Program-made: the position numbers and the translations under genes
The notes under the pieces: generated by a model
What the model saw: the letters and a program-made list of their open reading frames with translations, nothing else
What the model was told of the DNA's origin: nothing
Database searches by the model: none
Source of the DNA: a virus
Length of the DNA stretch: 29,104 nucleotides
Virus record (IMG/VR): IMGVR_UViG_3300050119_000075
Coordinates: 1-29,104 of that record
Strand: one strand, 5' to 3'
Part shown: piece after piece, positions 4,622 through 24,495 of the stretch
How positions within the stretch are numbered: position 1 is the first letter of the stretch
Layout: every line of letters starts with the position of its first letter

Positions 4622-4628
4622 AATAGGC

Positions 4629-4657
4629 TTGCGCTCGGTCGCGGGCTGTGGTAATCT
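4629..4657 (+). promoter_or_regulatory. Probable promoter ahead of ERF gene
   Basis: TTGCGC (4629-4634) and TAATCT (4652-4657) with a 17-base spacer lie in the 62-base gap before the ERF gene, one of the few untranslated gaps in the rightward operon. The -10 is a weak match. The downstream leader carries GGAGG before the ATG at 4684. Confidence 0.4.
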
Positions 4658-4683
4658 CGCCCAACTTAATTCTGGAGGATCAC

Positions 4684-5656: not shown

Positions 5657-5721
5657 ATTTAATATCCAGGTCTGAGGCACAAATTGGCGGGCTGAGCCGT
5701 TACTTCAGGAGAAATCTATGA
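5653..5721 (+). pseudogene. Deletion relic of HNH homing endonuclease (22 codons)
   Basis: The frame starts MNLISRSEAQIGGLSRYF and ends RRNL then stop. The first 18 residues align with both intact HNH proteins in this window (MKTISRAQAKSLGLKRYF and MKIITRAEAKSQGLKRYF). The last residues match the end of the 6440 gene (YLRRNT-stop), also at DNA level (AGGAGAAA). This is what an internal deletion joining first and last codons would leave. It starts with an ATGA overlap on the preceding ORF and ends with an ATGA overlap on the YqaJ gene, and its AGGAGA is the YqaJ Shine-Dalgarno. It encodes no nuclease but may persist as a translational coupling peptide. Confidence 0.75.
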
Positions 5722-9703: not shown

Positions 9704-10026
9704 GCGAGCCCCACACCTTCGAGGTTGGCGAGCTCGCCATCCTGATCTTCTCGCGAATACATCCTGAATACGACGGCGAGGACGTCGAGGTCATCGCCCC
9801 GCTCGCGGACCGTCTGGCCCGTAGGACGCCGGGAGACAGTGGTTCAATAATTCTTGGGTATCTTGTCCGGGTAATCAACAGTGATACCCTGCATGTTGAG
9901 CCGTTCCAACTCAAGAAGAAGCCGCCGTACGATCAAAGGCTTGGTACTACATGGGACCGATGCGCGTGGCGGCCGAAGCGCTTGACAGTTCCAGCCATCG
10001 CGATATATGATGGCGAGGAAATTTAG
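9700..10026 (+). CDS. Hypothetical 108-residue beta-rich protein
   Basis: Starts at a GTG (GTGA overlap with the previous stop) and reads MSEPHTFEVGELAILIFSRI. FEVGELAILIFS followed by YDGEDVEVIAPL looks like a small beta-barrel of SH3 or KOW type, and YLVRVINSDTLHVEPFQL continues it; this is a visual impression, not a family match. Its 3' end holds the promoter of the envelope-protein cassette. No function is assigned. Confidence 0.72.
   Translation: MSEPHTFEVGELAILIFSRIHPEYDGEDVEVIAPLADRLARRTPGDSGSIILGYLVRVINSDTLHVEPFQLKKKPPYDQRLGTTWDRCAWRPKRLTVPAIAIYDGEEI
9982..10011 (+). promoter_or_regulatory. Sigma70 promoter of envelope-protein cassette
   Basis: TTGACA (9982-9987), an 18-base spacer and TATGAT (10006-10011): a perfect -35 and five of six -10 bases. 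A start near 10018 gives a leader of about 45 bases with GAGG before the ATG at 10063. This lets the three-gene cassette be expressed separately from the replication operon. Confidence 0.7.
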
Positions 10027-10062
10027 GTTTAGACGTTCAATCAACACCACAGAGGACATTGT

Positions 10063-10494
10063 ATGAAATTCTTATTGACTATCTCTCTTTCGCTGTTGCT
10101 TGGCTCCGCGGCTGCGTACGCCCAGGAAGTCCCTGTCAGCGTCGCTGTTACTGGCGATCAGGTGGCGGCCCAGGCCGCTTCCCAGGAAGCCCTGGCTGCC
10201 GAACAGGCCGCCGCAGAAGCCGCTGACAAGACCGCCGCAGAGGAGGCCAGCCCCCAGGCAGCCACAAGCCCCGATCAGGTTCACGCCGTCATGTTCGAGG
10301 TCACGATTGACCGCTACACTGGCGTGTGGACACATGCTCAGGTCATTGGCGGCTACAAGGACAATGCGGCATGCACGCGCGCAGTGCTGCCAGTAGCAGC
10401 CGTCACCTCCGGGGATCTCGGTCAGAACGACATCCCGGTGTTTCTGTGCCCGGACATCGATCTGAAGTCTGTCAAGGATTGGCAGGTCAAGTGA
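10063..10494 (+). CDS. Secreted Ala/Glu-rich protein with signal peptide
   Basis: 143 residues. Residues 1-20 (MKFLLTISLSLLLGSAAAYA) are a Sec signal peptide with an AYA cleavage site before QEVP. Residues 35-70 are an Ala/Glu-rich helical or coiled segment (EALAAEQAAAEAADKTAAEE). The C-terminal domain (HAVMFEVTIDRYTGVWTHAQ ... CTRAV ... VFLCPD) has two cysteines that may pair in the periplasm. The ATG has GAGG eight bases upstream; a 36-base gap and a good promoter separate it from the replication operon. No family is recognised. Export to the periplasm is well supported; function, perhaps modifying the infected host's envelope, is inference. Confidence 0.8.
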   Translation: MKFLLTISLSLLLGSAAAYAQEVPVSVAVTGDQVAAQAASQEALAAEQAAAEAADKTAAEEASPQAATSPDQVHAVMFEVTIDRYTGVWTHAQVIGGYKDNAACTRAVLPVAAVTSGDLGQNDIPVFLCPDIDLKSVKDWQVK

Positions 10495-10598
10495 TCGTAT
10501 GGAAGTACAGGCGCTCATCAGCATGGCTGTGGTGGGCGCCTTTCTTTGTTTCTGCATTGATAGTTGCAGGGGTTATTTGGTTGGCCATTCGGGCCTGA
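10491..10598 (+). CDS. Tiny single-pass membrane protein (35 residues)
   Basis: Starting at a GTG that overlaps the previous stop (GTGA), the frame reads MIVWKYRRSSAWLWWAPFFV and ends VIWLAIRA. A basic N-terminus (KYRR) precedes one hydrophobic Trp-rich helix of about 24 residues, predicting N-in topology. The overlap, positive-inside charge pattern and cassette position support a real gene despite its size. It would sit in the inner membrane beside an exported protein. Its stop codon region lies in the left arm of the inverted repeat at 10594. Confidence 0.62.
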   Translation: MIVWKYRRSSAWLWWAPFFVSALIVAGVIWLAIRA

Positions 10599-10632
10599 CC
10601 ACTACCGCCCATCACAGCAAGCCGTGGTCAGG
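10594..10632. repeat. Perfect 9-bp inverted repeat bracketing promoter -35
   Basis: CCTGACCAC (10594-10602) and GTGGTCAGG (10624-10632) are exact reverse complements separated by 21 bases. The right arm abuts the TATAAT of the next promoter and the left arm precedes its -35. This could be a pair of operator half-sites or a large-loop RNA hairpin; there is no T-run, so a terminator is unlikely. Confidence 0.6.
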
Positions 10633-10638
10633 TATAAT
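10611..10638 (+). promoter_or_regulatory. Promoter of DUF3494 lipoprotein gene
   Basis: A perfect TATAAT (10633-10638) with ATCACA (10611-10616, four of six matches) at 16 bases. A start near 10645 leaves about 33 bases of leader containing AGGAG before the ATG at 10678. Overlap with the inverted repeat at 10594-10632 suggests regulation. Confidence 0.62.
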
Positions 10639-10677
10639 GGCCCGACCTGTCACCCAATCTTTTTTCAGGAGTTTCAC

Positions 10678-11793
10678 ATGTTTAAGAATCTAATCGCACT
10701 CGTCGCAGCGGCGATAGTGACCGTTGGTTGCGGCGGAAGCGGTGGAGCTCTGCTGTCCACAGTGACGGTGTACCCGGTTCCGGGTAGTTCGTCCAGCTCG
10801 TCCAGCTCGTCTTCCAGCGGCGTAACCACACCCCCTTCCAGTAGCTCGTCCAGTTCGTCTGGCGGCTCGTCCAGTGGCGTGATCACACCCCCCAGCTCGT
10901 CCAGCTCGTCTGGCGTCTCGTCCAGCTCGTCCAGTTCGTCCAGCTCGTCTGGCGTCTCGACAAGCTCTAGCTCGTCAAGCAGCTCGTCTTCTAGTAGCTC
11001 CAGCTCCTCTGGTGGCACGCTCGTCCCGCTCGGCGCAGTTCAGACGGTCGGTAACTTCGGCGGTACTGCCGGGATGACCAACACCGGAACCCTGACTACG
11101 GTAGTCGGCGATGTCGGTTCGACCGCAACAGCCGCTTCGTCGCTCACGGGCTTCCATGACAGCACCGGGAACATCTACACGGAGACCACGGCTAACATTG
11201 GCACCGTGACTGGCACGATCTATTCGTGCGCGCAGTCCACGGTAGGCTCCGATGATGCCGCGCCGAACGTGCCGAAGTGCTCGACCGGCTACCCTAACGT
11301 AGGCGGCCCGAACGCTACGCAGATGGCCGCTGATGCGGATACCGCGTACCTGCAGCTCGAAGCGATGCCCTTCACGGCACCGACCCTGGTCGACAGCTTG
11401 GCTGGGCTCACCCTGCCGGCTGGCGTCTACAAGTCGGCCCCTGGGTCGTTCTCTATCGTTGGCGGCGATCTGACGCTCACTGGTTCTGACACAGACGTGT
11501 TCGTGTTCCAGATGGCTTCTACGTTAACGGTTGGTGCCGCCAATGGCGGGGCCTGTCAGAACGTGATCCTCGCTGGCGGAGTGCTGCCGAAGAATGTGTT
11601 CTGGCAAGTGGGCTCAGGGGCGACGATCAATGCGCCCGGTGGCTGCACCTTCGTCGGTACAGTGATCGCAAGCGCTGGTGTCGCCGTCTCAACGGTTGGC
11701 AATGTCGGCATTGTGGATGTCGAGGGTCGCCTCATGTCGCTGAACGCTTCAGTGACCATAGTCGACACGGTGATCAACGTCCCAACCCCGTAA
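10678..11793 (+). CDS. Ice-binding-like (DUF3494) lipoprotein with poly-Ser stalk
   Basis: 371 residues. Residues 1-17 are a signal peptide followed by C18 (TVGC), a somewhat weak lipobox. Residues about 36-111 are a serine-rich linker with SGVTTPP and SGVITPP interruptions. From residue 112 the DUF3494 ice-binding beta-helix is clear: LGAVQTVGNFGGTAGMTNTG, GDVGSTATAASSLTGF, DSLAGLTLPAGVYKS, DLTLTGSDTDVFVFQMASTL, NVFWQVGSGATINAP, CTFVGTVIASAGVAV. The domain binds ice in some bacterial and algal members; others act as adhesins or have unknown ligands. The ATG at 10678 is chosen for AGGAG upstream and the signal peptide. It has its own promoter and a terminator. Poly-Ser linkers are typical of aquatic gammaproteobacterial secreted proteins, hinting at host-derived acquisition (inference). 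Confidence 0.9.
   Translation: MFKNLIALVAAAIVTVGCGGSGGALLSTVTVYPVPGSSSSSSSSSSSGVTTPPSSSSSSSSGGSSSGVITPPSSSSSSGVSSSSSSSSSSSGVSTSSSSSSSSSSSSSSSSGGTLVPLGAVQTVGNFGGTAGMTNTGTLTTVVGDVGSTATAASSLTGFHDSTGNIYTETTANIGTVTGTIYSCAQSTVGSDDAAPNVPKCSTGYPNVGGPNATQMAADADTAYLQLEAMPFTAPTLVDSLAGLTLPAGVYKSAPGSFSIVGGDLTLTGSDTDVFVFQMASTLTVGAANGGACQNVILAGGVLPKNVFWQVGSGATINAPGGCTFVGTVIASAGVAVSTVGNVGIVDVEGRLMSLNASVTIVDTVINVPTP
10786..11013 (+). repeat. Degenerate 9-bp repeats encoding serine linker
   Basis: Tandem, imperfect copies of TCGTCCAGC-like units encode uninterrupted serines broken by SGVTTPP-type segments. Serine codons alternate among TCG, TCC, AGC and AGT. The slippage-prone array could vary in length among relatives. 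The opposite strand stays open only because of the repeat. Confidence 0.8.
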
Positions 11794-11808
11794 GACTGGG
11801 ATGACAAG

Positions 11809-11843
11809 TAGCCCCGGCTGGAAACGGCTGGGGCTATTTTTTT
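11809..11843 (+). terminator. Rho-independent terminator after DUF3494 gene
   Basis: An 11-bp stem (TAGCCCCGGCT at 11809-11819 pairing with 11826-11836, two G-U pairs) with a GGAAAC loop is followed by seven T residues (11837-11843). It ends the rightward transcript just before the convergent leftward genes. The reverse strand lacks a T-run, so it should act mainly rightward. Confidence 0.88.
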
Positions 11844-12349
11844 GCGTTGGCGCCAAGCATCTCGGCGCGAAGGGCCGCGTCTACCGCCTGCACCGCCGTT
11901 ACTTGGGCGTCTGCGTCTCTGGCGATGGTGACGGCTGCGTCGGCGAATTGCTGTAACTCTGCAACAGAGCTCTCATCTTGGCTTCCGCTGACGGGGGCGT
12001 TGTCTCCACTGGGACTACCGATGGCGGGGCCGGGCAAGGGGCCACTACCGCGTACGGTGCGGCACAGGCCGACAGGCACAGGAGCATTGGTGACAGGAAC
12101 AGCGATAACTTTTTCATTGAGCTTCTCCGCAAGAGTGGTGGCAGCTGCCGCGAGGCCTTGGACGGTCGTGTTGCGCTCCGTTTGGGCTACCACGGCCTTT
12201 TGATTCAGGGCCAGGATCTTCGCCTCACCCTCCATTACAACCGAGTGATGATACCACGCGAAGCCCCCTATGAGAGCGACCGCAGCGCCGGCAATGAGAT
12301 ATCCCTTGATGGGGTTGATGGCGCCCAGCGCCGTGCTCAGAATTGTCAT
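11834..12349 (-). CDS. Rz: Inner-membrane spanin (Rz-like)
   Basis: 171 residues. Residues 14-32 (IKGYLIAGAAVALIGGFAW) form one N-terminal transmembrane helix, followed by a periplasmic helical domain (EGEAKILALNQKAVVAQTER) and an Ala-rich C-terminal helix, the plan of an i-spanin. A Pro/Gly-rich insert (PLPGPAIGSPSGDNAPVSGS) coincides with the part overlapped by the embedded Rz1 frame. i-Spanins fuse inner and outer membranes in the last step of Gram-negative lysis together with Rz1. The ATG at 12349 has AGGAG seven bases upstream and overlaps the holin stop. Its TAG stop lies within the rightward terminator stem. Confidence 0.85.
   Translation of the reverse strand: MTILSTALGAINPIKGYLIAGAAVALIGGFAWYHHSVVMEGEAKILALNQKAVVAQTERNTTVQGLAAAATTLAEKLNEKVIAVPVTNAPVPVGLCRTVRGSGPLPGPAIGSPSGDNAPVSGSQDESSVAELQQFADAAVTIARDADAQVTAVQAVDAALRAEMLGANAKK
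11899..12117 (-). CDS. Rz1: Outer-membrane spanin lipoprotein (Rz1), nested in Rz
   Basis: 72 residues in the +1 frame, wholly inside the Rz gene as in lambda. Signal peptide MKKLSLFLSPMLLCLSAC ends in the canonical lipobox L-S-A-C with C18 acylated. The mature part is proline-rich (APYAVVAPCPAPPSVVPVET), as in o-spanins, and ends PSPETQTPK. The ATG at 12117 has GGAG eight bases upstream; an earlier in-frame start adds five residues without a better site. The product is anchored in the outer membrane and bridges the periplasm to Rz. No Asp follows the lipid cysteine, consistent with outer-membrane sorting. Confidence 0.88.
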   Translation of the reverse strand: MKKLSLFLSPMLLCLSACAAPYAVVAPCPAPPSVVPVETTPPSAEAKMRALLQSYSNSPTQPSPSPETQTPK

Positions 12350-12603
12350 GGGTGTGCTCCTATGATGTCGTGAACGAGCTCAGCATGCTCGCGTTGCTGT
12401 ATCCCAGGACGATCTGGTAGCTTGTCATCGATGCAGGAGTGCGCCGTGTAGCAGCCAAAGACCGTAGTGAAACAAGCTCCAAAAATCGTGCCACCAATGT
12501 GGTTCGTCCAGACGAGCACTGTCAGTATGACGAGCGCCGACATAGCCAGGATCGCCCGAACCTCTGCGAAGTCGTCCAGCATTTCGCTTATTGCAATTTT
12601 CAT
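12346..12603 (-). CDS. Holin-like membrane protein
   Basis: 85 residues with two hydrophobic segments: about 18-36 (AILAMSALVILTVLVWTNH) and 38-54 (GTIFGACFTTVFGCYTA). A polar N-terminus (MKIAISEMLDDFAEVR) and a charged C-terminus complete a class II holin-like topology. It lies between lysozyme and spanin genes with ATGA overlaps on both sides, the usual place of a holin, whose pore releases endolysin to the cell wall. No family signature beyond topology and context; the 169-residue membrane protein upstream is an alternative holin candidate. Confidence 0.72.
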   Translation of the reverse strand: MKIAISEMLDDFAEVRAILAMSALVILTVLVWTNHIGGTIFGACFTTVFGCYTAHSCIDDKLPDRPGIQQREHAELVHDIIGAHP

Positions 12604-13031
12604 ACGGGGCTCATGAAAAGTTTCTGCTCAGCCGCCCGTCTACGTGTTAGACCGTCGTCGACCACACCATCGCAGTGGTTCCACTTCGGAAACTCGTTGG
12701 CAGCCTGAGCCAGCTGGCTCTGATTGATGTAGTGCAACAGCGTCGAGTGCGCCTCGCTGCCGATGCCCAGGTTGTAGGTGAAGTCCACCAGGGCATCGAA
12801 TTGGTTCTGATTAATAGCCACGTCTAGTGAACGGTTGACGGCTAGTACCGCAGCGGCGGCATCCGCCTCAAGAAAGGCGTCAGCCTGCGCCTGGGTACAC
12901 GTGTCGCCCTCTTTGACGCCCGCCGTGTGACCGTAGCCTATAGTCCAAACACCCTTCTGGTCCTGGTACGCTACGGACCTGAAGGACTCGAACTGCTCGA
13001 TCAGTTGTTTGCCAGCTGGTGATAGCTTCAT
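12600..13031 (-). CDS. GH24 (T4-type) lysozyme endolysin
   Basis: 143 residues. The active-site pattern matches T4 lysozyme spacing: E15 in QFESF, D24 in AYQDQKG and T30 in VWTIGYGHT. Downstream NQNQFDALVDFTYNLGIGS and the C-terminal TRRRAAEQKLF are typical of GH24 phage muramidases, which hydrolyse the MurNAc-GlcNAc bond in peptidoglycan. No signal peptide or anchor is present, so release through a holin is expected. The ATG has GAGGG nine bases upstream, and the stop overlaps the holin start (ATGA). Confidence 0.95.
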   Translation of the reverse strand: MKLSPAGKQLIEQFESFRSVAYQDQKGVWTIGYGHTAGVKEGDTCTQAQADAFLEADAAAAVLAVNRSLDVAINQNQFDALVDFTYNLGIGSEAHSTLLHYINQSQLAQAANEFPKWNHCDGVVDDGLTRRRAAEQKLFMSPV

Positions 13032-13071
13032 GAGAATGCCCTCAACGAATTGCGAAATGTCCGGTCAGAAT

Positions 13072-13167
13072 TCAGATCAAAATTCCGACTGCGAATACTA
13101 CGGTCACAAAGACCCAAAGACAGATTGCGCATAAGGCGAGTTTTGACTTCCAGGATGCGATGCTCAT
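13072..13167 (-). CDS. Tiny lysis-cassette membrane protein (31 residues)
   Basis: The ATG at 13167-13165 overlaps the stop of the upstream 169-residue gene (ATGA), and the frame reads MSIASWKSKLALCAICLWVF then VTVVFAVGILI. Residues 10-31 are one continuous hydrophobic helix preceded by two lysines. Size, coupling and position between a membrane protein and the lysozyme suggest a lysis-modulating or holin-accessory peptide. Longer frames across this stretch are Arg-rich and lack signals. Function is inferred from context only. Confidence 0.6.
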   Translation of the reverse strand: MSIASWKSKLALCAICLWVFVTVVFAVGILI

Positions 13168-13673
13168 ACCGCCTTCTCCGTTGGGGGCGTTTGCACCACC
13201 GGGATTGGCGCATGCGCCACGACAACTACCGGGATGGGGCTTGCGTCACGGGCGGCGGCTTCGATCCGCGGATCAGGGTATCCCACCGGCCTACTGGCGA
13301 TAGTTGCTGCAGCCGATTTGGCTTCCGGCGTGGCGTTCGGGTTCGCCATCACCTCCATAAATACCGCTGTCTGCGTCTCCCTCGCGAGCTGCATCTGCTG
13401 CTCATGCTCTCTTCCGTCAACCAGTGCCTTGGCAATCAAGGCCTTGTTCATGCCGTTGGTCTGGACGTGTATCTCCTCGATCTTTGTCGCGTTCACGGCT
13501 GACAAGTCCGCCGCGCGAGCTATCGCTACGGCATTGCGCTGGGCAGCGATCTCGTTTCTCAGGGAGGTGCGCCAGCCGCCCACTGCGGCAACGCCAGCGA
13601 GCATAGTGCCGCAGGCCGATATCACCGATCCGGCGATAAGCGCCATGCTTGCTGCTGCACTGAGGTCTACCAT
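13164..13673 (-). CDS. Membrane-anchored coiled-coil protein upstream of lysis genes
   Basis: 169 residues. One hydrophobic segment (about 8-33, ASMALIAGSVISACGTMLAGVA) is followed by a long helix (LRNEIAAQRNAVAIARAADL, IEEIHVQTNGMNKALIAKAL) and a Pro/Ala-rich tail ending in PPTEKAV. Proteins with an IHVQTN-type helix after one membrane segment commonly sit beside phage endolysins, but I know of no proven activity; a holin or antiholin role is possible. The ATG has only a weak GAAG upstream. It follows the giant gene by 11 bases, so it is probably on the same late transcript. Confidence 0.75.
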   Translation of the reverse strand: MVDLSAAASMALIAGSVISACGTMLAGVAAVGGWRTSLRNEIAAQRNAVAIARAADLSAVNATKIEEIHVQTNGMNKALIAKALVDGREHEQQMQLARETQTAVFMEVMANPNATPEAKSAAATIASRPVGYPDPRIEAAARDASPIPVVVVAHAPIPVVQTPPTEKAV

Positions 13674-13683
13674 TGTTATTCTT

Positions 13684-16600
13684 CTACGCTAGAAATTTGA
13701 CCAGCGATGCGGTCGCCGGCATGCCGTAAGAGTATAGCAGGCTTGTCTGTTTTTCTCGCGTTGCACCAATCAACTTGGACGCCTGGAATGGGGAGAGCTT
13801 GCCGCCTGGACGCAGGTCGAACGCGCGTTTGGCGATAGTGTTGATGACCTCCTGTATCTGATCCATTCGCTCCTGCTTATCTTTGCCCGACATTCCCGGC
13901 ATTTGTTGTATGACGCGCTGTTGTTTGTAGAGGGAGTTGACCGCCTTAACCTGCTCGTCAATGGCCGGCTGCATCACAATGTCCGCCAGATGCTCGTTGT
14001 GGAATTCCAGCCCGCGCTCTACCTCTCCGCCCTTCATGTACTTCTTGAAGGTATCGGCGGCCTCGTCAACCTGTTTCGCATAGGCGTACATTTGATCGCT
14101 GTACTTCGTACGTCGCGACGGGCCGGTACTGTAGACCTGGCTCATTGCCGGAACGTCCTGAGGGAAGCCGCGGGTTGGCGCCTCTATCCCCTTCGACTTG
14201 TTGATCGCCCAGTCTGACGCCGCTGTCGCAAACTGACCAAGGGTTCCGAGGTAGCTGGCCCCAAGGTACTGTAGCTGCTTCGGGCTCTTGGCAAAGTCCG
14301 GCATGAACTCGGGCATGTTTTGAGCTATGCCGCGGTAGGTGGGACTGACGTACGGCGCGTCCTGCGCCTGAGGAGCTACGCTTAGATCCTGTTGATTGAG
14401 GATGGGAGAGCCGCTGTAGGCCTGCTTGTTGCGCAGCTCACCGACCATGGGGCTGATCAGGGTGGGCAGCCCACCCATTGCGATCTGATGCCACACTACG
14501 TCGCCTACCATGGACACGGCGTTTTTGACGCGGTCGTTCTCGCTGCTCAGCGCCAAGTCTGTAAGCGCCTCTGGAATCGTCGTCACGATATCTGCCGAGT
14601 CGAACCCCTTTGGAATCTGGATGTGAACCCCACCAGGCCAGAAGTGGTAGTAGTTGATCTTCTGATCGTTGGTCAGGGCCTTGTACTCTTCGTTGTCCTT
14701 GTGCATGTAGGCGTACGCAACGGCAGACATGGCCATCAAACCAGCTCGGGTTCCGACACCCAAGGGGTTACGCACGGCAAGCTCATACGCCGAGGACGCG
14801 CCTGAGATCCCGGCCTTGAGGAACGGTACGGTGTCGCAGAAGAACCGCATGACCTCGTAGTCTCCGCCCTTGCTGTAGTCGAGTACGTTGCGCGCGGCGA
14901 ACGCCTGCTGGAGTCGGCTACCGCCCTCTTTCTCGACGGCCTGCGCAACCGCCAGACGATGCGTGCCTTCGGTGGCGGACAGGAGGTGGCTGTAGAAGGC
15001 CGAGAATTTGAGCGCGCTATCTATGATGATGCCACGCCCCTTGATGCCTTTGGCTATCCCGGAAGTGTTTCCGCTTGCATGGGCTCCCACGAAGGCGCCG
15101 CCGGCCGCCGCGAGATCGCGTGACTCCTGGGTGCCCTTCATGATCTTGTAGATGCCCTTCGCCGTATCCCAGACCGGGATGAAGTCCGGCATGATGTGCT
15201 TGTCTCCAAGCACCGTCTCGCTCTGATGTCCGCTCAAGAACTGCAGGAAGCTGTGGCGCATCAGAACCTTTCCGATGAAGATTGGTGACTTGACGATAGC
15301 TGCGGTTAAAAACCTCTTCGGCGCGCTCAACACCTTCATCGCGAGCGCCTGAAACCCAGACCTTCCGTTATCGTTCATGTTCGTGAGCGCCCTGAACAGC
15401 ACCGGATCGTGTACCAGGTAGTGCTCCTTCACGCCATTGCGCCAGAGCCACACGTGGTTCTTGCTCTCCGGGATGTAGGCGGCATGCTCGTACATACGGT
15501 CGAACGTCTCTCCGGTGACCCGGTCTGCGTCGATTCCCTGATCCGACAGCTGCTGCCTGAATGCGTCCCGACTCAGCGTGGTGCCGTGCGGCGGAGTGAA
15601 ACGCTCAACCATCCCGGTGTGCGCGATGCTATCCACTGTGAGCTGTAACGCCTTCGTACGCAGGCTGGACTTCATCAGAGAATCCCAGTTGCGCAGCATG
15701 TTCTCCATGGGGTCGCCAAGCGCGGACGTTCCGCCGGTCAGCCTATTGATCTGTTGTCGCACGCGCCCAATCTCGTTTCCTGATCCGTGGCCGCCAATCT
15801 CACCATCCTCGTTCATCACGCGGAAGAATGGCACGTAGTCGTCGTGCTCCCATAGCGCGCGGGACGACTTGCTTATGACTCCGGCCTGCTCAGCGAAGTC
15901 AAGGACGCCCTTCTTGAACTTCGCCAGCTCAGTGTAGGCGTGCTCGAACTCTGGGTTCTGGGTCCACAGGCGATTGCCGGCGTCGATCTCTGGCTGCGTG
16001 AATAGGTTCTCGCGTCCCTCGCCCATCAGGCGGTCTGCGCGCCGCGCTACCATGGCCCTGAAGAAGTCGTCAACTTTTTTCCCAAGTGGCGCCAGGATAT
16101 CCTGGAAGCCGGTGTGGCCAGAGATGGCCGGGGCGTCGTCATTCCAGGTTGGCGTTCCGTAGCGAATGAGGGCGTCCATCAGGGATGCGTGGTTCGCGGC
16201 GAGGCGCGCGCTCATGCGTCCCAGATTCGGGCCTTCGTTTCCGCTGATGCGCCAGGCGCGCTGTATGCCCCATGTCTTGTCGAAGATGCCCTGTACGACC
16301 TTGTCGCGAAACAGCTCCGACTCGGACCTGATGTTCTTGAGGAAGCCACCAATTTTTTCCGTGAAGCTACGCTTGTCGGGGTTGATCTTTGACAGGAACG
16401 ATTCCATATCAGGATCGTGCGCCCCGCCTACGGCGAAGTGAGCCTCTCCCTGCTGTAGGCTGGGCTCTGTCGTCTTCTTGCTGCGCGACTCTGTCAGCCG
16501 CGCGGCTGCCTTCAGTAGACTGGGTTCGAGAGTTTCGACAGCAATCTTTGGCGCTTGTCCTGCATCTGTCGGCTGGGCAGCCTGGGACTGCCGACGTAGG

Positions 16601-19600
16601 CCGTCAAGTTGCTCGCCGTAGCCGGCTTGCCGGAGAACGGTTTCTTGCTCCCCGCCGAGGAAGAGGGTCGAGAAGTCTGGGGTACCTTTGATGAGCGCAT
16701 CGCTTATGTCCTTGTCTTTTACGAGATCGGCTATCGACGCCATCCCCTTAAATGAATCCGAGTGTTCGCTGGCCGCTTTCGACCAGGACCATATTGTTTC
16801 CTGAACCTCAGCTGGGGTCCAGGTCTCGCCGGTCAGCTTCGAGAGGTGCTCGGCAGCTTGCCGGACACGCGCCGAGTATGCCATATATGCCGTGGACTTG
16901 CCAGGCTCGGTCTTGGTAGCGTTCAGCTGGCCACCGAATATCTTGGCGTCCACGTTGGCATAGTGCGCCATCCACGAGTCGAGCGTTACATCCTCCACAT
17001 GTCCGTGGAGGTTGCGCATGAAGGAGTTGACCTTGGGTCCGCTGATCGTCAGGGTCTCTGGGTTCGGGTGCGTGAGGCTGGACACGGTGTTGTTGATCCA
17101 CGCCGGCAGCACGCTGTCAGTGAGCTTGTTGCCCTCTACCGAGTCGCCCATGATCTTGAAGATCGCGCCGCGTGTCTGTGGACGCCCCGCCGCGTCCCAG
17201 TTCTTCCACGTGCTGACGGCGTTCATCAGGTTCGTCTCTACGCTAGTCTGGGGGCTCATGCTCGCCAGTAGCGCGCTGAAGCGCGGAGCGTCATGGCCGA
17301 ATACGTTAGAGATCGCCTCGGCGCTCTGCTTGTACCAGCCGCGCTTCGCCCTACCGGCATAGGCGACGTGTGCCATCTCTTTGGCGCTCGGTAGCTGGTT
17401 AAACTGGTCTACGACGCGCTGCGCCGTGGCACGATTGAGCTTGCCCTTCTCGTCAGGGGTCAGGTACTTGGCGATCTTGGCGATGGTGTCGCGTACCGCG
17501 CGGCGGGTGGGTGATTCCTTCTCGGCGACCTTGTCGAGAAACTCACTCATGTCTTTTGACTTCTCGGCATTGGTTCTGAACATCGCCGTGAGCGGGCCGC
17601 CGGCTGTAGCGGCCTTGCGCATCTCGGGCGTGATGTCGATGCCGTGAACCATGGTATCCGGGTGGCTGTCCGTACGGTACTTCTGCATAAGCGCATCGCG
17701 CTTCTCGTTGCTAAGGTTCGCCCAGTATTCGTGTTGAGACTCGCGGGCTATCCCCATGCGGTCCATGACCAACTCTCCGCTGACCCAGTCCTTGCCAGTG
17801 GTCTGCTTTCCGATAGACTCGCTGGTGACCTTGCCACCGAACTTCTTCGTCAACTTCTCGGCAGCGCTCGGCAGCATCTTGTCATAGAAGCCGCGCATGC
17901 CGGAACCTCCTACCTCAAGGTCTTGCCCGTTGAGCTCGCGGGTTGGGAATAGGCGTGGCTTGGTCCTTTTGCCGGAGGCCCCATCATCTCGATACATGGT
18001 GGAGTCAGGGTCCGCTTCATACGCCGCATGCTCCTCGGCGGTCTTACCATTGAGTGTCAGCATGCGCTGGTTCGCCGCAAGGAGCTTGTTCGCTACTTCC
18101 TTGCCTACCATGTCAGGCAGCCCAGCTTGCATCTCTGCCTCTGACTTCCAAAACTTCGTGGTGTTGCTGCCACGGGTGTCGTGGTACGCCTTCAGGACAT
18201 GCTCGCCATCCTCGTTGGAAACCAGCTTGAGGGATTTGACGTGCTTGGAGAGGTTGTAGCGCGCGTTCTGCTGATCGCCAGTCGTCCACGACAGACGGTC
18301 GAAGCCGTTCTCTGCTGCGTGCTGCAGCATGCGCTTGAGCGCGAGCTCGTGCCAGCTGGTCTTGAAGGGGGCGTCTGGGACGCCATCGTCCTGTCCCTCA
18401 AGCTCTTTGTATTTTCTAAGTAGCTGATGGTACTCTTCCTGAACTGCGGTAATCTGAGCCTCATTAGCAACCGCGTCATCCCCGTTCAGGCGACTCTCTT
18501 TCTTACCAAGGTCTGTCATTTTTGACTGCAGATCCGCCATGGTCTGCAGTCTATCTTTCAGGCTCATGGTAGTGGAATAACCATTTTTTCGCCCCTCCTG
18601 ATGCCAGTCGCTCTGGATCTCCTGAAGGAACAGGTTGCGCTTGCCAGCGGGATCGGTGCGCTCATCGTAGCGGACATGGGCCAGGACGTTGTCGTGGCCT
18701 GACCAATGGTTAGATTTATAGGCGTCTCGCCCTCTTGGCGCTCTTGCTACTGTGCCGCCAAGGACACCGGCATCGTGCATCGCCTCGTACTGGTTATCGT
18801 AGTACCTTGGAGGTTCGATGCCATTTGAATCAGTGACCTTGAATCCGTTCGGCTCAACAGGGGTCTTCAGTAATTTCTCCGCGTAGTTCTCGCCACCGGG
18901 GATGTTCAGGCTCTCGCGGTCGTAGACGGAGGGGGTCTCGTTATCGTGGTATCCGATGCCTTTAAGGACTTCTGTGTACCAAGGATGTTCTGCGTGTGCG
19001 TTGAACAGCTCAGGAAATTTGGCGTCAATCTCTTTGTAGACATCGTAGTCATTGGCGAGGGAAATGTTCAGATCGTTTTCCCGACCATTGATGCCGCCAT
19101 TCTCTTTGATGACGCGCGCTACCTCTCGGGTGTAGTACGGGCTCTCTTTGTTTAGCGTTAGATCCCTGTGCTGCAGCGTCGTCTCACCCAGCTGTACCTG
19201 GTGCTCTCGTAGGTAGCCCAGCAGGTCAGCCTTTGATACTGTGCCAGTCTGCTTGTCGAGCCAGTCGTGGACGCCAAGCCAGTCCATCTCTTCCTTCTTC
19301 ACACCGGACAATCCCTTGAGCGTACCCTTCCACTGGTCTGCTGAGGCCTTGGCTTGTTTTGATCCCTCGACCGCATCTACCAGGGCGGAGTGCCAGCGCG
19401 GGGCCTCTGACTCGCCCATGTTGTACTGGCGTGGCTTGCCGGTGATGCGCTGGCTCAAGAGGTCGCGCGCTAGGAGACGTTTGCCGGCACCGCGGCGGAG
19501 CGCCTGTGCGCTACGGTCGATCAGCGAGGTGATGTCGGCTTCTGTCCAGATGCCGTTGCGGCCCTGCTGAAAGAGCGAGTTGAGCCTCGCGCCGTCCGCA

Positions 19601-22600
19601 TCGCGAATGACTCCAATTCTTTGCAGGGCATCGTGGACGTAATCAATAACCTTATCGAAGAGTCCTTTATGCTCGGTCGACAGTACACGCTGCTCTGATG
19701 CGTAGGCGACAATTTCCTCCGCAGCGGATCGCCTGGCAACAACCCCACCGGCCGCGAGGTCAATGCGATTGCGCTTAGCCATCTTAGGTATGAGCTGAGG
19801 GAAGCTCGTCGCGATGCCATCCATGACGCCAGCATAATGATCTACTCCGTGTTGCTTCAAAATTCCACGCAGGCCGTAGTGGCCAACGATCTCGTGATAC
19901 GCCGTGATGGCAGCGTGGTCGGCACTACCGAGGTTCGCTCGGAACAGGTGTACCGTGCCGCCATCTGGGTCATCGATGAACACGCCGCTGATCGGCAAGT
20001 TCTCCGCTTCCCACTCAGATATTCTATCAGGCATATCCCTGGGGTGTTCGACGATGTTGACCTTCACCCCAAAGCGCTTGGTTACGTGTTCGGTGACTTC
20101 CTTCAGCTCCGTGTGGCCCATGCCACCCATGCGAATAACCGTACGCTCAGCGTTGGTTCTCCCAAGCTCGTCTGGGCTGGCCTGCCACCCTTTCGCGCGG
20201 CGGGCGGAGTCTGCCTTCTTGTCTGCCGCAGACGGATTGAATGTGCGCTTGGCCTCGACCTTGCCGAAGATCCGCGCCTGGCCCTTGAAGTTGCCCTCAC
20301 CGTTCGGCAAGTGGTAACCCAGGTAGCCGGCGCGCTTGATGGCGTTCTCGGCCTTGGTGTGATCGTAGCCGTTCTTGCCGGTGGCCTTTCTCACGAAGTT
20401 CATGGGGTCTGCGCTGAGGTCGTACATCTTCGAGCGCGGCACGGTGATGCGGTACTCGGGCAGTCCGCGTAGGCCAGCCTCGATGCCACTGTTCGGGTGG
20501 TCTTCAGCGTACGCTGAAATGACCTTGGGGCCGTTGCGCCCAGCCTCCGCTCCCTTGAGGCCGGTGCCCATGCGGCTCGGGTCGACGGTGAAGCCGTTGC
20601 TGTCCGTCCTGCTGAAGTGACGGAAGCTGATTGTGTCGGCGTCCTTGTCGACGCGGAAGCCACGATCCCGCTCTGTTGAGCGAGCAGCTTCGTCTATGAT
20701 GTCGTGGCGCTGGTTGCGTAGCCAATCTTCCTTGTGCGCCTTGATGAAGTCGGCCAGGTCGTCTTGCTCCTCGGTGCGTTCGCGCGCGGGCTTGTCTCCG
20801 GCTACGGAGCCGGTCTGGTCCCTGCGGAAACCGATCTCACCCTGAATCCCTGTACGGCTGCGCGGCTCGTCGGAGAGTGGCGTACCGTTCTCCGTCAGAA
20901 AGTAGTCGGGGTTGAAGTCGCCCCATTTTTCCTTCTCCGGTCCGTGCATCTCACCCTTGCCATCGGCGTACTGCGGTATGGCTTCCTGCTTCAGGTCAAC
21001 ACTTAGGGAGTGGGCCTCTTCCGGCGTCAGCTTTCGCGACAGTTTGGCGACCAGCGTCGACTCTGTACCTGATTCGTGAACAGAAGACGAGACGATGTCG
21101 ACGCCCTTTGCCTTGAGGGCGGCCTCGGCTTCTTCTCGACTGATGGAGCCGGTCTCACCGACCTTCAGGCCGATGTTTACCAGGGGATGGCGTTCGTCGG
21201 TTCGGAACGCTATTTGTACCTTTCCGGGTACGTCTTTTCCCAGTTGATCTTTTTCTTGTGCGCCGACTCGATCTCCTTCTTCTCCTCGTACATGTCCTTC
21301 AGCGACCGCTCCTGCTTGCTCAGCGGGATTGAGTTCTGAACCTCGGACTTCCACTTGCTTTCCGGGAAGTTGTCCATGATCTGCTCCGCGGCCAACCAAT
21401 CTTTCAGCTCGCTTACCGCTGACTCCCCTGAAAACGGCTTCCGTAATTCGTCCACTTTGATACTCCTCGGCTGCGATCTTGTGTAGATGACTCGACGTGA
21501 CGTCATAGTGCTTATCGGCTATCGCATCCATGTCCGAAGATTTGAACTTGTCGACGTCGATGACGTGGAATCTAACACGTTTGTCGCCCTTGTACTGGCG
21601 TGAAAGGGCGCTGACCGTTTTGAAGCTATCGTTGTTGGCTGCGGCGTGCGCCTCGACCGGCACGGCGCGACCCATCTTCATGGCGCGCATCAGCATTGAC
21701 TTGAAAGACTCTATTGGGTCACGGTCGTGGAATTGAATGTCGACGCTGCGCCCGCTGTCTAGCGCGGCCTTGATGCGGCGCCTAGCCTTCGCCAGATTGT
21801 TCATGTTGCCGTCGTAGATCATGTCGGCGGACTGGGCTTCATCCGAACCAAGGCTGACCGACTTGCCGCTATCCGGGCCGCCAGCTGTGAAGAATACCTT
21901 GGCCTCTTTCCCGGCGCGCACCGGCTTCGCGAGTCGGCGGGTGTACAGCTGATCGGCCAGCCACGAGCTGGCTTCCTGAACGGCGTTGGAGAAGCGAGAC
22001 TTCGCTTTCAGGCTGCTGGCGTAGTCCGGGCTCATCTCACGGATACTGTCAGTGTTGATGACACTGCCACCATCGGTGTCGCTCAGTTTGGCGTACGCGA
22101 CTTCAGCTGCGTCGACATTCGAGACGACGCGCTTCATCCGGTTGCTGACAGCGGTCTCTGCGCCGCTCAGCGGATAGTTCGGGGGAGGGATGGCGGCAAT
22201 GTTCTTGCTCGCCTCGGGCGTGATGATCTTGGGTGGCTCAAACCCGCCTTCCTTGGCAGGCTTCAGCGTGATCTTCGGTTTGCCGGCGTAGACGCTTGTG
22301 ACGTCTTCTCCGGGCGTGTCCTTGAACGGACCCTCTGCGCCCAGTGGGCCAGGGAGTGGCGCGAGTTCGCGCGTCTGGTCAGGGCTTGACTTGGCCCTGA
22401 TCTTGGGCTTGCCGGCGGATTGAGTGGCAGGCTCTCCTGGGAGCGCCCCCTCTTCAACCGATAGCGGGGTTAGACTTTGCTGCCCACTGCGTCCGGCGTC
22501 ATCTCCGGCTTGCGCTTGAACCTCGGCTGCGAGCTTTCCTTCGGGCTGTTGCCCAGAGCCAGCTTCCCGCTGTGGAACCCGCCCTGCGGGCCCCGGTTCG

Positions 22601-24495
22601 GACGCTGGTCGTTGAACTCGCCCCACGACCCCTTGATCGCCGGCTGCTTGTTGAGGTCGCTCATTTGCTTCGTCTCCGATGAGGCCAGCGTTCTCGCCGG
22701 CCGCGATGTAATCTTTGAAAGCCTGGGTGCGCGTCTTCTGTGCGCGCTGCAGATCATTATAGCCTACTTGGACCCTGGGGTCGTCCAAAGCGTCCTGTAC
22801 CCGCTTGAGGGCGTAGTCCGCGGCAAGGAGGTTGTCGCGCGCCTGGGAGACGCCAACGCGCGGATGGCCGCTCATGGCGTTGTCGGTGATTTTGTTCAGC
22901 TCGGTCCTTTTGACGCCGAATCCGCCCATGAGGCCAAGGGGCGCAAAGGTGATGGCGCTGCCGATGGCGTCGTTCAGGCTGCTCTCGCGCTCCTCGTGCG
23001 CCAGGTCTGACCAGCTTGGAGCGGTGCCGGCTCGGGACGCGAGCCCAAGACCAGCGCCCTGCACTGCGCCGCCGACCGTCGCCTCCGCGGTGGACTTGGC
23101 TATGCTGCCAGCCACAGACCTGGATGCCCGCATGCCTATGGCTGTGCTGGAGATGGCGTGGCCCAGGACGCCGCCTGAGACGCCAGCGGCAGTGAACGCG
23201 ATCACCGTCGCCATCGCTGACTTGTCGTTCGCCAGATTTTCCGTGGCTACAGCCTCCGACATACCGGCATCCCGATCATCGCGATAGGACTGGAACTTCA
23301 TCTTGGTTGGGTCGTCAAGGCCAGTAATGGTTTCCCTGACCTGCTGCCCCGTCTGGCCGCCCATGGCGCCACCGTTGAAGATCACGGACGCCACCATGCC
23401 AGACTTGACGGCCTGCTTCTCAGCGGCCTGTCGCGCCAAGGCGGCGGCCATTGATTGCGGCATCTTCTGGGTGGCGAGTTCTGCCGCGGTCCTGGCGAAC
23501 GTGGATGCGTAGGCGCTGCGCGCTACCCCGCCGACCAACATGCCGTCAGTGGCCATGAATCCTAGTCCCACAGCTGCCTGGTTCTCCCACCACAGGGGAT
23601 CTTTGATGCCCTGCTGCCACTGCTTGGCGATGGAATCCTTGTACTCGGGAGTCATGTAAGACTCCGCTATGTCTCCGCCGGACTTGGCGATCTTGTGGTA
23701 CGCGGGCTCGACATCGTTTATCAGGGCGTTCATGCCCTGAGCGACGAGTGGCGTCATGATGGGGTTGAACGGAAAATCCTTGATCGGCTTGGTGCCGGTG
23801 AGCTTACCAGCAAGGTCCAGACCCCATTGCTGTGTGTCTGCCGGTAGACTGAACACCTTGGCCATGGTTCGACTGAGCTGCGGTACGCCGCCCACGGTCT
23901 CTGCCGCCATCTTGCCGGCCCCGCTCAGGAAGTCCTTAATGCCACCGACGTCTGAGCCGGCGGTCGCAATCTGCTCCTCGCTCGTGTTCGGGCCGGCCAT
24001 GGCGACAGCCTTCTTGGCGTCGCTGCGCTCCAGCGTGCGGCCAGCGCTTTCGTTGTATGGGCGCCCCGCCCACGGGCTCTGCTCCACGGCTTCCGCGCCC
24101 TTGGCGCCAATGTCTTCCTGAGTGGATGAGGCCCCCTTGAAGGCGCGCGGGGTGTTCATCTCGTCGCCAGCGTCGGCGTATTGGGTCAGCGCTGCCTTCT
24201 GGGACGTCGGTGCAACGTACCCAGGCTTGGCCGGTGGGGTAACTGGGGGGGCAAGGGGGTCTGAAGGGGGCGTACCCTGTGCCAGGGGTGCTCTATAGGT
24301 CGAAGTCGGCTCCTGGGGCTTCTCCGTGGCTCCTGGAGGGGGTGCTACGGGGTTCAGTTTGGCGCCAGGGGGCAGGGGTGGTAGCGCGGCGTCAGCGGAC
24401 ACGGGGTTAAGCGTGGCGCCGGGAGGCAATGGGGTCAGGTCCGCAGGGAGCGGGTTGAGTGTGGCGCCGGGTGGCAACGGGGGTAGGTCGGACAT
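13684..24495 (-). CDS. Giant polyvalent ejection-type protein (3603 residues)
   Basis: Domains in order by eye: N-terminal LPPGATLNP repeats (4-60); Ala/Gly-rich hydrophobic helices (about 300-540); low-complexity linker (600-800); zeta-toxin-like kinase with P-loop AGGPDSGKS (871-879); a domain from LVNIGLKVGE to FNPDYFL (about 1105-1210); possible ADP-ribosyltransferase-like segment with HFSR (1293); zinc metallopeptidase HEIVGH (1534-1539) with E1593/E1594; conserved polyvalent segments near 1955 (QEIQSDWH) and 2045-2085 (SWHELALKRML); a helical region near 2412 (ASMSPQTSVETN); C-terminal LPD38-like domain from about 2880 (HDDYVPFFRV). Phage polyvalent proteins are thought to enter the cell with DNA and act early on the host. 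The ATG overlaps the upstream stop (TAATG). It is third in an ejection-like trio. Two +1-frame genes are nested at 611-675 and 1014-1095, so one continuous product is likely but unproven. Confidence 0.85.
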   Translation of the reverse strand: MSDLPPLPPGATLNPLPADLTPLPPGATLNPVSADAALPPLPPGAKLNPVAPPPGATEKPQEPTSTYRAPLAQGTPPSDPLAPPVTPPAKPGYVAPTSQKAALTQYADAGDEMNTPRAFKGASSTQEDIGAKGAEAVEQSPWAGRPYNESAGRTLERSDAKKAVAMAGPNTSEEQIATAGSDVGGIKDFLSGAGKMAAETVGGVPQLSRTMAKVFSLPADTQQWGLDLAGKLTGTKPIKDFPFNPIMTPLVAQGMNALINDVEPAYHKIAKSGGDIAESYMTPEYKDSIAKQWQQGIKDPLWWENQAAVGLGFMATDGMLVGGVARSAYASTFARTAAELATQKMPQSMAAALARQAAEKQAVKSGMVASVIFNGGAMGGQTGQQVRETITGLDDPTKMKFQSYRDDRDAGMSEAVATENLANDKSAMATVIAFTAAGVSGGVLGHAISSTAIGMRASRSVAGSIAKSTAEATVGGAVQGAGLGLASRAGTAPSWSDLAHEERESSLNDAIGSAITFAPLGLMGGFGVKRTELNKITDNAMSGHPRVGVSQARDNLLAADYALKRVQDALDDPRVQVGYNDLQRAQKTRTQAFKDYIAAGENAGLIGDEANERPQQAAGDQGVVGRVQRPASEPGPAGRVPQREAGSGQQPEGKLAAEVQAQAGDDAGRSGQQSLTPLSVEEGALPGEPATQSAGKPKIRAKSSPDQTRELAPLPGPLGAEGPFKDTPGEDVTSVYAGKPKITLKPAKEGGFEPPKIITPEASKNIAAIPPPNYPLSGAETAVSNRMKRVVSNVDAAEVAYAKLSDTDGGSVINTDSIREMSPDYASSLKAKSRFSNAVQEASSWLADQLYTRRLAKPVRAGKEAKVFFTAGGPDSGKSVSLGSDEAQSADMIYDGNMNNLAKARRRIKAALDSGRSVDIQFHDRDPIESFKSMLMRAMKMGRAVPVEAHAAANNDSFKTVSALSRQYKGDKRVRFHVIDVDKFKSSDMDAIADKHYDVTSSHLHKIAAEEYQSGRITEAVFRGVSGKRAERLVGRGADHGQLPGKQVEVRGSELNPAEQAGAVAEGHVRGEEGDRVGAQEKDQLGKDVPGKVQIAFRTDERHPLVNIGLKVGETGSISREEAEAALKAKGVDIVSSSVHESGTESTLVAKLSRKLTPEEAHSLSVDLKQEAIPQYADGKGEMHGPEKEKWGDFNPDYFLTENGTPLSDEPRSRTGIQGEIGFRRDQTGSVAGDKPARERTEEQDDLADFIKAHKEDWLRNQRHDIIDEAARSTERDRGFRVDKDADTISFRHFSRTDSNGFTVDPSRMGTGLKGAEAGRNGPKVISAYAEDHPNSGIEAGLRGLPEYRITVPRSKMYDLSADPMNFVRKATGKNGYDHTKAENAIKRAGYLGYHLPNGEGNFKGQARIFGKVEAKRTFNPSAADKKADSARRAKGWQASPDELGRTNAERTVIRMGGMGHTELKEVTEHVTKRFGVKVNIVEHPRDMPDRISEWEAENLPISGVFIDDPDGGTVHLFRANLGSADHAAITAYHEIVGHYGLRGILKQHGVDHYAGVMDGIATSFPQLIPKMAKRNRIDLAAGGVVARRSAAEEIVAYASEQRVLSTEHKGLFDKVIDYVHDALQRIGVIRDADGARLNSLFQQGRNGIWTEADITSLIDRSAQALRRGAGKRLLARDLLSQRITGKPRQYNMGESEAPRWHSALVDAVEGSKQAKASADQWKGTLKGLSGVKKEEMDWLGVHDWLDKQTGTVSKADLLGYLREHQVQLGETTLQHRDLTLNKESPYYTREVARVIKENGGINGRENDLNISLANDYDVYKEIDAKFPELFNAHAEHPWYTEVLKGIGYHDNETPSVYDRESLNIPGGENYAEKLLKTPVEPNGFKVTDSNGIEPPRYYDNQYEAMHDAGVLGGTVARAPRGRDAYKSNHWSGHDNVLAHVRYDERTDPAGKRNLFLQEIQSDWHQEGRKNGYSTTMSLKDRLQTMADLQSKMTDLGKKESRLNGDDAVANEAQITAVQEEYHQLLRKYKELEGQDDGVPDAPFKTSWHELALKRMLQHAAENGFDRLSWTTGDQQNARYNLSKHVKSLKLVSNEDGEHVLKAYHDTRGSNTTKFWKSEAEMQAGLPDMVGKEVANKLLAANQRMLTLNGKTAEEHAAYEADPDSTMYRDDGASGKRTKPRLFPTRELNGQDLEVGGSGMRGFYDKMLPSAAEKLTKKFGGKVTSESIGKQTTGKDWVSGELVMDRMGIARESQHEYWANLSNEKRDALMQKYRTDSHPDTMVHGIDITPEMRKAATAGGPLTAMFRTNAEKSKDMSEFLDKVAEKESPTRRAVRDTIAKIAKYLTPDEKGKLNRATAQRVVDQFNQLPSAKEMAHVAYAGRAKRGWYKQSAEAISNVFGHDAPRFSALLASMSPQTSVETNLMNAVSTWKNWDAAGRPQTRGAIFKIMGDSVEGNKLTDSVLPAWINNTVSSLTHPNPETLTISGPKVNSFMRNLHGHVEDVTLDSWMAHYANVDAKIFGGQLNATKTEPGKSTAYMAYSARVRQAAEHLSKLTGETWTPAEVQETIWSWSKAASEHSDSFKGMASIADLVKDKDISDALIKGTPDFSTLFLGGEQETVLRQAGYGEQLDGLRRQSQAAQPTDAGQAPKIAVETLEPSLLKAAARLTESRSKKTTEPSLQQGEAHFAVGGAHDPDMESFLSKINPDKRSFTEKIGGFLKNIRSESELFRDKVVQGIFDKTWGIQRAWRISGNEGPNLGRMSARLAANHASLMDALIRYGTPTWNDDAPAISGHTGFQDILAPLGKKVDDFFRAMVARRADRLMGEGRENLFTQPEIDAGNRLWTQNPEFEHAYTELAKFKKGVLDFAEQAGVISKSSRALWEHDDYVPFFRVMNEDGEIGGHGSGNEIGRVRQQINRLTGGTSALGDPMENMLRNWDSLMKSSLRTKALQLTVDSIAHTGMVERFTPPHGTTLSRDAFRQQLSDQGIDADRVTGETFDRMYEHAAYIPESKNHVWLWRNGVKEHYLVHDPVLFRALTNMNDNGRSGFQALAMKVLSAPKRFLTAAIVKSPIFIGKVLMRHSFLQFLSGHQSETVLGDKHIMPDFIPVWDTAKGIYKIMKGTQESRDLAAAGGAFVGAHASGNTSGIAKGIKGRGIIIDSALKFSAFYSHLLSATEGTHRLAVAQAVEKEGGSRLQQAFAARNVLDYSKGGDYEVMRFFCDTVPFLKAGISGASSAYELAVRNPLGVGTRAGLMAMSAVAYAYMHKDNEEYKALTNDQKINYYHFWPGGVHIQIPKGFDSADIVTTIPEALTDLALSSENDRVKNAVSMVGDVVWHQIAMGGLPTLISPMVGELRNKQAYSGSPILNQQDLSVAPQAQDAPYVSPTYRGIAQNMPEFMPDFAKSPKQLQYLGASYLGTLGQFATAASDWAINKSKGIEAPTRGFPQDVPAMSQVYSTGPSRRTKYSDQMYAYAKQVDEAADTFKKYMKGGEVERGLEFHNEHLADIVMQPAIDEQVKAVNSLYKQQRVIQQMPGMSGKDKQERMDQIQEVINTIAKRAFDLRPGGKLSPFQASKLIGATREKQTSLLYSYGMPATASLVKFLA
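19560..20150 (-). other. Metallopeptidase domain of giant protein
   Basis: Approximate boundaries, residues about 1450-1645. The zincin signature is AYHEIVGHYGLRGIL, with H1534, E1535 and H1538; the second motif AEEIVAYASE (E1593 or E1594) probably gives the third zinc ligand. This matches the metallopeptidase domains described for phage polyvalent proteins. Substrate unknown; a host protein or self-cleavage are both possible. Confidence 0.75.
20240..20660 (-). other. Possible ADP-ribosyltransferase-like segment of giant protein
   Basis: Approximate boundaries, residues about 1280-1420. FRHFSR followed by VDPSRMGTGLKGAE, then EYRITVPRSKMYDL and AGYLGYHLPNGEG, resembles the ART-type domain of polyvalent proteins, where an early His-x-Ser/Thr binds NAD. 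I cannot place the catalytic glutamate with certainty, so this is tentative. Confidence 0.4.
21210..21455 (-). CDS. Embedded +1-frame gene after zeta-like domain (81 residues)
   Basis: GTG at 21455-21453 with GAGGAG seven bases upstream. The product begins MDELRKPFSGESAVSELKDW and ends NWEKTYPERYK. It is soluble, charged and helical (SKQERSLKDMYEEKKEIESA). By hand count about 66 of 81 codons end in G or C in this frame, against about 25 of 81 for the overlapping giant frame, where the giant protein reads as GGA/GAA/CAA-rich filler. This is the pattern expected if the small frame is the one under long selection. It starts inside the last codons of the zeta-like domain and stops just before the next domain. 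An antitoxin or partner of the kinase is the attractive reading; no family match is claimed. An in-frame ATG at 21506 is less well placed. Confidence 0.7.
   Translation of the reverse strand: MDELRKPFSGESAVSELKDWLAAEQIMDNFPESKWKSEVQNSIPLSKQERSLKDMYEEKKEIESAHKKKINWEKTYPERYK
21460..22098 (-). other. Zeta-toxin-like kinase domain of giant protein
   Basis: Residues about 800-1012. P-loop AGGPDSGKS with K878, then VDIQFHDRDPIESFKSMLMR and HVIDVDKFK, ending EEYQSGRITEAVFRG. This is the layout of zeta-toxin/PezT-like kinases, which phosphorylate UDP-N-acetyl sugars and block wall synthesis. Its last codons overlap the start of the embedded gene 21210-21455. Confidence 0.7.
22470..22664 (-). CDS. 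Embedded +1-frame gene in linker of giant protein (64 residues)
   Basis: ATG at 22664-22662 with GGAG nine bases upstream. The product begins MSDLNKQPAIKGSWGEFNDQ and ends DAVGSKV. It is basic, Gly/Pro/Asn-rich and probably disordered (RPNRGPQGGFHSGKLALG, QPRFKRKPEMTPD). By hand count about 59 of 64 codons end in G or C, against about 31 of 64 for the giant frame, whose reading here (RPQQAAGDQGVVGRVQRPAS) looks like out-of-frame filler. It ends TAA before the giant linker recovers normal codon use. No family is recognised; a small nucleic-acid-binding or virion-associated protein is possible. It shares the +1 offset with the other nested gene. Confidence 0.62.
   Translation of the reverse strand: MSDLNKQPAIKGSWGEFNDQRPNRGPQGGFHSGKLALGNSPKESSQPRFKRKPEMTPDAVGSKV
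24325..24490 (-). repeat. Repeats encoding LPPGATLNP at N-terminus of giant protein
   Basis: About four imperfect copies of a unit encoding LPPGA[TK]LNP or PPPGATEKP occur in the first 60 codons, with matching DNA (CCGGGTGGCAACG-like units on the plus strand is the reverse complement). They probably form a flexible proline-rich tether. Confidence 0.7.

Follow-up and report, generated by a model that had tools for sequence, protein, structure and literature searches.

A putative small gene nested out of frame in a giant polyvalent phage gene, and a family of small +1-frame genes beside related zeta-like kinases

Small genes lying wholly inside a longer gene are familiar from the spanin genes of phage lambda, where Rz1 is embedded in Rz on the same strand in the +1 frame, is internally initiated and encodes the lipoprotein partner of Rz; Rz itself is small. 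Here we analyzed a related arrangement in the window, that is, the whole stretch of 29,104 nucleotides formed by positions 1 to 29,104 of the IMG/VR virus record IMGVR_UViG_3300050119_000075. It contains a candidate gene, named n1, which like Rz1 is a small phage gene placed wholly inside another one on the same strand in the +1 frame, with a predicted internal start; unlike Rz1 it has a multidomain ORF of 3603 codons as its host and is without a detected homologue. Embedded +1 genes of phages are already known (Rz1 in Rz), and what appears to be new is their placement in the linkers of giant polyvalent proteins.

Zeta-like kinases were already reported in polyvalent proteins of phages and conjugative elements (Iyer et al. 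2017, PMC5512222), and the ORF of the window resembles these proteins in being many-domained and in carrying LPD38 together with a zeta-like kinase. That paper uses neither 'overlapping' nor 'linker', and it has 'nested' for a hairpin fold only; relative to it, the nested +1 genes in inter-domain linkers are a new element. In the open-access literature searched we found no description of nested or overlapping genes of this arrangement in polyvalent proteins, nor, in that on polyvalent proteins, of the nested small family after the kinase which is described below. Long same-strand overlaps favour the +1 phase (PMC2542354). The epsilon/zeta, PezAT and AvrRxo1:Arc1 systems share with the present loci a zeta-like kinase having a small adjacent partner gene, which in AvrRxo1:Arc1 is an antitoxin gene downstream of the kinase (PMC4938570). 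Unlike in those systems, the small genes here overlap the kinase ORF or are nested in it in the +1 frame, and an antitoxin role may be proposed for them by analogy; n1 differs further in lying upstream of the kinase and in being unrelated in sequence to the downstream family.

The features of the locus are given under coordinates, strand and description.

24495-13684, minus strand: giant ORF containing n1 and n2, predicted polyvalent protein of 3603 aa
22674..22677, minus strand: GGAG Shine-Dalgarno-like (SD-like) site, 9 nt before the n1 ATG, read from the sequence
22470..22664, minus strand: n1, putative nested +1-frame gene of 64 codons (64 aa), ATG at 22664 and TAA at 22472-22470
21400..22143, minus strand: zeta-toxin-like kinase domain, giant aa 785-1032 (Pfam Zeta_toxin, 1.8e-8)
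21384..21387, minus strand: GGAG SD-like site, 6 nt before the n2 ATG at 21377, read from the sequence
21210..21377, minus strand: n2, putative second nested gene with the likelier start ATG 21377, 55 aa, +1 frame, directly after the kinase domain, placed by codon signal and SD
16789..17436, minus strand: DUF7178 match, giant aa 2354-2569 (Pfam)
14191..14691, minus strand: LPD38 (large polyvalent protein associated domain 38) match, giant aa 3269-3435 (Pfam)

By its domain content the giant ORF is a polyvalent phage protein, with Zeta_toxin, DUF7178 and LPD38 found by Pfam in one chain of 3603 aa, and in the PHROGs search it matched very long PHROG proteins. For its N-terminal region (aa 1-612), which adjoins n1, several searches gave no relative, among them HMMER with --max over the fetched loci, and none was obtained for the region of n1. 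An AlphaFold model of the kinase domain, made with 12 sequences, has a mean pLDDT of 85.7 and its best PDB match is gonococcal zeta1 (6eph, TM 0.82), with AvrRxo1 as a weak match; the Walker A motif TAGGPDSGKS is conserved in the kinase alignment. By fold and Walker A motif the domain between n1 and n2 is a zeta-like kinase, a class whose characteristic activity is toxic phosphorylation of UDP-amino-sugars or NAD. Elsewhere in the window, in the plus-strand gene block of the phage, positions 10564-11793 (plus) encode a protein of 409 aa with an Ice_binding-like (DUF3494) domain (Pfam E 1e-40).

An earlier note on this DNA, which left the strand unstated, had described n1 as 64 codons with an ATG and GGAG nine bases before it, and this geometry was borne out on the minus strand. 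n1 lies wholly within the giant ORF in a different frame of the same strand with its own start (aa 611 in giant-ORF numbering) and stop (aa 675), and the kinase homology begins 113 codons after its end. The product of n1 (MSDLNKQPAIKGSWGEFNDQRPNRGPQGGFHSGKLALGNSPKESSQPRFKRKPEMTPDAVGSKV) would be a basic and hydrophilic protein of 7 kDa with a pI of 10.1 and a GRAVY of -1.21. The SD-like site is weak evidence for the gene, since such a site precedes 10 of the 57 internal +1 ATGs of the giant ORF. The same note had reported a contrast in G/C endings, and this is correct: G or C ends 59 of the 64 codons when they are read in the +1 frame (GC3 0.92), but 31 of 64 when the giant frame is read (GC3 0.48).

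Such a contrast may also come from composition. The codons of a linker rich in A, G, P, E, Q and R often have G or C as their first base, and this base is the third one in the codons of the +1 frame, which may thereby look coding. The high +1 GC3 is indeed partly forced by the amino acids of the giant frame, and the G/C count alone being unfair, chance was assessed at the synonymous level with the giant protein held constant and codons resampled from the window's own usage (20,000 draws for n1). Under this null the +1 frame is open at n1 with P = 0.57, so the open frame alone proves nothing as evidence for n1, and the best-scoring +1 segments of the resampled ORFs fall at n1. The observed +1 codon score, however, was reached by none of the +1-open draws among the 20,000, and the low GC3 of the giant frame at n1 was matched in no more than 0.02% of draws. 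In synonymous usage the +1 frame of n1 is gene-like (-0.875, where normal giant-frame windows average -1.02), and the giant frame across n1 (-1.47) is like the out-of-frame average (-1.49).

An unsupervised three-frame Viterbi segmentation of the whole 3603-codon ORF, for which aa 600-680 and 990-1100 were excluded from the training of codon usage, gave exactly two segments in a frame other than zero, n1 and n2, and both are +1. Their gains are 29.8 for n1 and 37.1 for n2, against a top gain of 16.0 in 300 codon-resampled giant ORFs, 12 of which had an alternative-frame segment of any kind; control ORFs have 0.18 segments per 1000 codons. In view of the resampling and the segmentation n1 carries an embedded-frame coding signature beyond chance, and its origin as a compositional artefact is highly improbable. 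When the n1 product is instead held constant in the resampling, an uninterrupted giant frame has a P of 0.027, and the giant reading is probably maintained too, as a linker.

The limits of the n1 segment (aa 607-674) bear on programmed frameshifting. In this case ribosomes would slip into the +1 frame before n1 and terminate at 22470, the product would be a short N-terminal piece with n1 sequence at its end, and n1 would lack an own start. An open +1 frame does extend 33 codons upstream of the n1 ATG and is closed by a stop, but those 33 codons are without coding usage and the signature starts next to the ATG; moreover the related family downstream of the kinase keeps its ATG and SD and exists as separate genes. 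We consider programmed frameshifting at n1 extremely improbable.

For n2 the open +1 frame extends back to an ATG at 21506 which is without SD, and the Viterbi segment covers aa 1012-1087. Its signal climbs from about aa 1029, and together with the SD this fits a start at 21377 better; n2 thus probably starts at ATG 21377. Resampling under a constant n2 product leaves the giant frame uninterrupted with a P of 0.005. The proposal that one ORF holds two nested +1 genes in the linkers on both sides of the zeta-like domain is in agreement with these data, as each of the two segments has a start, an SD-like site, a stop and gene-like synonymous usage. A compensated frameshift, in which a linker formerly read in the +1 frame within the giant protein was shifted by two indels, would likewise give +1 codon usage and a giant frame that looks out of frame, and n1 would then be no gene. 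That reading would need two double events in one ORF with the same phase both times, whereas the +1 segment starts beside an ATG with SD and ends at a stop, and the analogous segment in relatives has a separate-gene homologue; we regard it as very unlikely.

The first IMG/VR scans, done with a single kinase sequence and with n2, found nothing, and the kinase relatives came from an alignment query, which provided 80 viral loci, out of 347 relatives, together with 18 genome loci. The relatives are of two sorts. In the first sort the kinase has a gene to itself, with a product of about 290-340 aa that stops shortly past the motif 'RIS.A.YRGT', and most of these loci have a small +1 gene which begins within the 3' end of the kinase gene and runs about 35 codons beyond it. 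In the second sort the kinase is one domain inside a longer ORF, which may reach about 3400 aa, and a low-complexity linker follows it. The kinase tree needs five changes between separate and embedded kinases, and most separate kinases form one clade inside the embedded ones; its root and several placements are weakly supported and the row of the window is a long branch. This support was too weak for calling the direction of fusion from the tree, either as stop loss with fusion or as splitting of a fused gene.

With per-locus codon models a +1 segment was found at the kinase end in 23 cases among the 57 loci of the giant sort, some of them near-duplicates. The density of +1 segments is 5.04 per 1000 codons at the kinase end, whereas the remainder of these ORFs has 0.18 and other ORFs likewise have 0.18; coding segments of this frame are thus 28 times denser at that place. 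A family profile was built solely from the separate small genes, from the part lying beyond the kinase stop, and is therefore free of dual coding. In the +1 frame of the giant linkers this profile gave 15 matches at E<=0.1, rising to 23 at E<=1. The remaining five frames yielded a single match at E<=1 between them, which is in frame 0 and comes from a Moraxella plasmid (L005). Among 44 non-redundant giant linkers, chosen without regard to the family profile, 11.5% of the pairs are similar at z>5 in the +1 frame against 0.5% in frames 0 and +2; this set supersedes similarity figures from linkers picked by the +1 profile, which were biased by that selection.

In many giant ORFs, as also in the separate genes, an ATG accompanied by an SD-like site is again found at a distance of 16-30 codons ahead of the kinase end, and the family proteins have in common a polar N-terminus and a C-terminal segment 'L(A/V)..LN..V', a motif also written L(A/V)xxLN. 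Nested copies are found in L009, L030, L036, L037, L042, L054, L056, L116 and other loci, and separate copies in L007-L018 and L048-L096. For the 23 relatives having a family match, the corresponding P of an uninterrupted giant frame, with the small protein held constant, averages 0.20. At the level of sequence this comparison establishes nested +1 genes in the linkers of such giant ORFs as real and as kept. Among PHROGs the family had no match, and its isolated, weak hits in Pfam (YebG and others, in one member each) were judged to be chance.

Several further segments were observed in the fetched loci. The +2 segments in L043 and L059 (GC 0.70) were judged to be artefacts of the codon model. 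L035 (giant aa 1119-1164 and 1194-1235) and L044 (giant aa 1245-1327) have further +1 coding segments, which lie 310-390 codons past the kinase and are apparently unrelated to the kinase-end family. Aeromonas phage phiARM81mr (L124) has a +1 segment with a gain of 14.1 at aa 439-497 of its giant ORF 3771-13343, and Achromobacter phage CF418P1 (L125) has one with a gain of 12.2 at aa 1232-1271 of its giant ORF 5526-13580; both lie in low-complexity linkers and end at a stop, and the records list no separate gene within these ORFs. Directly before the phiARM81mr giant gene there is a stretch of about 1.9 kb (1913-3770) without an annotated gene. A Paraburkholderia plasmid (L003) has a +1 ORF at codons 266-326 of its zeta-like ORF and the Moraxella plasmid (L005) has one after the zeta-like domain; the two products (WINSAMKGIKEMHENEEARQDVA and WLNEAHELSVKMSQDESFRQEVA) are alike by eye and unlike the phage family. 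The frame-0 match of L005, also after the zeta-like domain, has an E of 0.0038, or 0.31 with the wider profile, and is possibly chance.

n2 stands at the place of this family, right after the kinase, in the +1 frame and with coding usage. As a sequence member of the family it was rejected, as neither the narrow nor the wider family profile recognises it, and being at the conserved place without a profile match n2 is either very diverged or a different gene.

The earlier note had suggested a search for stand-alone homologues of n1, and none came out of the phage records, the IMG/VR scans, 20 related records or 369 genomes. tblastn against the phage records at E up to 10 gave no match, and the IMG/VR scans gave none by peptide patterns nor by the degenerate pattern WGEFND...GGF. 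HMMER with --max over all ORFs of the fetched loci gave no n1 match, its best E in the 20 related records was 0.12 and was judged to be chance, no homologue was found in the 369 genomes, and there was no match in Pfam or PHROGs. The profile of the small family after the kinase does not match it either. A +1 coding signal before the kinase, on the same side as n1, was found in only three of 67 relatives, at aa 968-1018 of L055, aa 922-962 of L100 and aa 996-1034 of L108, and these segments have no sequence likeness to n1. By sequence comparison n1 is an orphan, though other pre-kinase +1 segments exist in kind.

These results bear on the proposal that the kinase block had entered as a multi-gene cassette. 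The part concerning the downstream side agrees with the relatives, in which the kinase comes with a small gene after it, separate or nested. The part concerning n1 was not supported: n1 is 113 codons off and has no homologue, and the pre-kinase signals, present in 3 of 67 relatives, are unlike it in sequence. The lack of a homologue also suits the possibility that n1 is a fossil, formerly a separate gene between two ancestral genes, which was read across after their fusion and is now unused with its codon usage not yet decayed. A small gene with a lost stop is what fusion leaves, and both separate and embedded kinase genes occur among the relatives. Yet the start, SD-like site and stop of n1 are intact and in codon usage it equals or exceeds the average gene, and conservation of the analogous post-kinase family within giant ORFs argues that nested copies are generally kept; a fossil is accordingly an unlikely explanation of n1.

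The reading that we favour as probable takes n1 for a real, internally initiated small gene which lies in the +1 frame inside the giant gene, the same DNA giving a linker. The case for it is strengthened by the post-kinase family conserved in giant linkers, as n1 has the same anatomy in another linker. Ribosomes would start n1 internally on the giant mRNA at ATG 22664, using the GGAG site, and would stop at 22470. In the giant frame the same DNA would be read as a low-complexity linker leading from an N-terminal, injected-protein region to the zeta-like kinase domain. Such a linker may accept almost any polar sequence, and the selection on codons and residues would then be set mainly by the small gene. 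We infer that n1 is translated and is maintained by selection.

By analogy with epsilon or Arc1, the small proteins adjacent to the kinase are tentative candidates for partners restraining the kinase in the producing cell, and n1 may possibly be a putative partner or chaperone of the giant protein; both roles are put forward with low confidence. In a wider reading, for which we see about equal reason for belief and for doubt, the linkers of giant polyvalent proteins host out-of-frame small genes, the kinase module of many otherwise different giant ORFs carries a small +1 partner gene in its own 3' end and the linker after it, and n1 is an example of further genes of this type in other linkers of one ORF, so that one mRNA would give a giant injected protein as well as the small proteins controlling or escorting it.

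Dozens of other phages hide a small gene of a related kind directly after the same kinase domain, so a single stretch of DNA can be protein linker and independent gene at once. Gene finders rarely call out-of-frame genes in long ORFs, and hence annotations as well as Pfam and PHROGs may lack a class of small phage proteins. Should the small proteins bind the kinase, the gene that controls a giant injected protein would sit in the linker of that very protein, which bears on how phages stay safe from the toxic domains that they package. Nested genes might also explain why polyvalent proteins have such odd low-complexity linkers.
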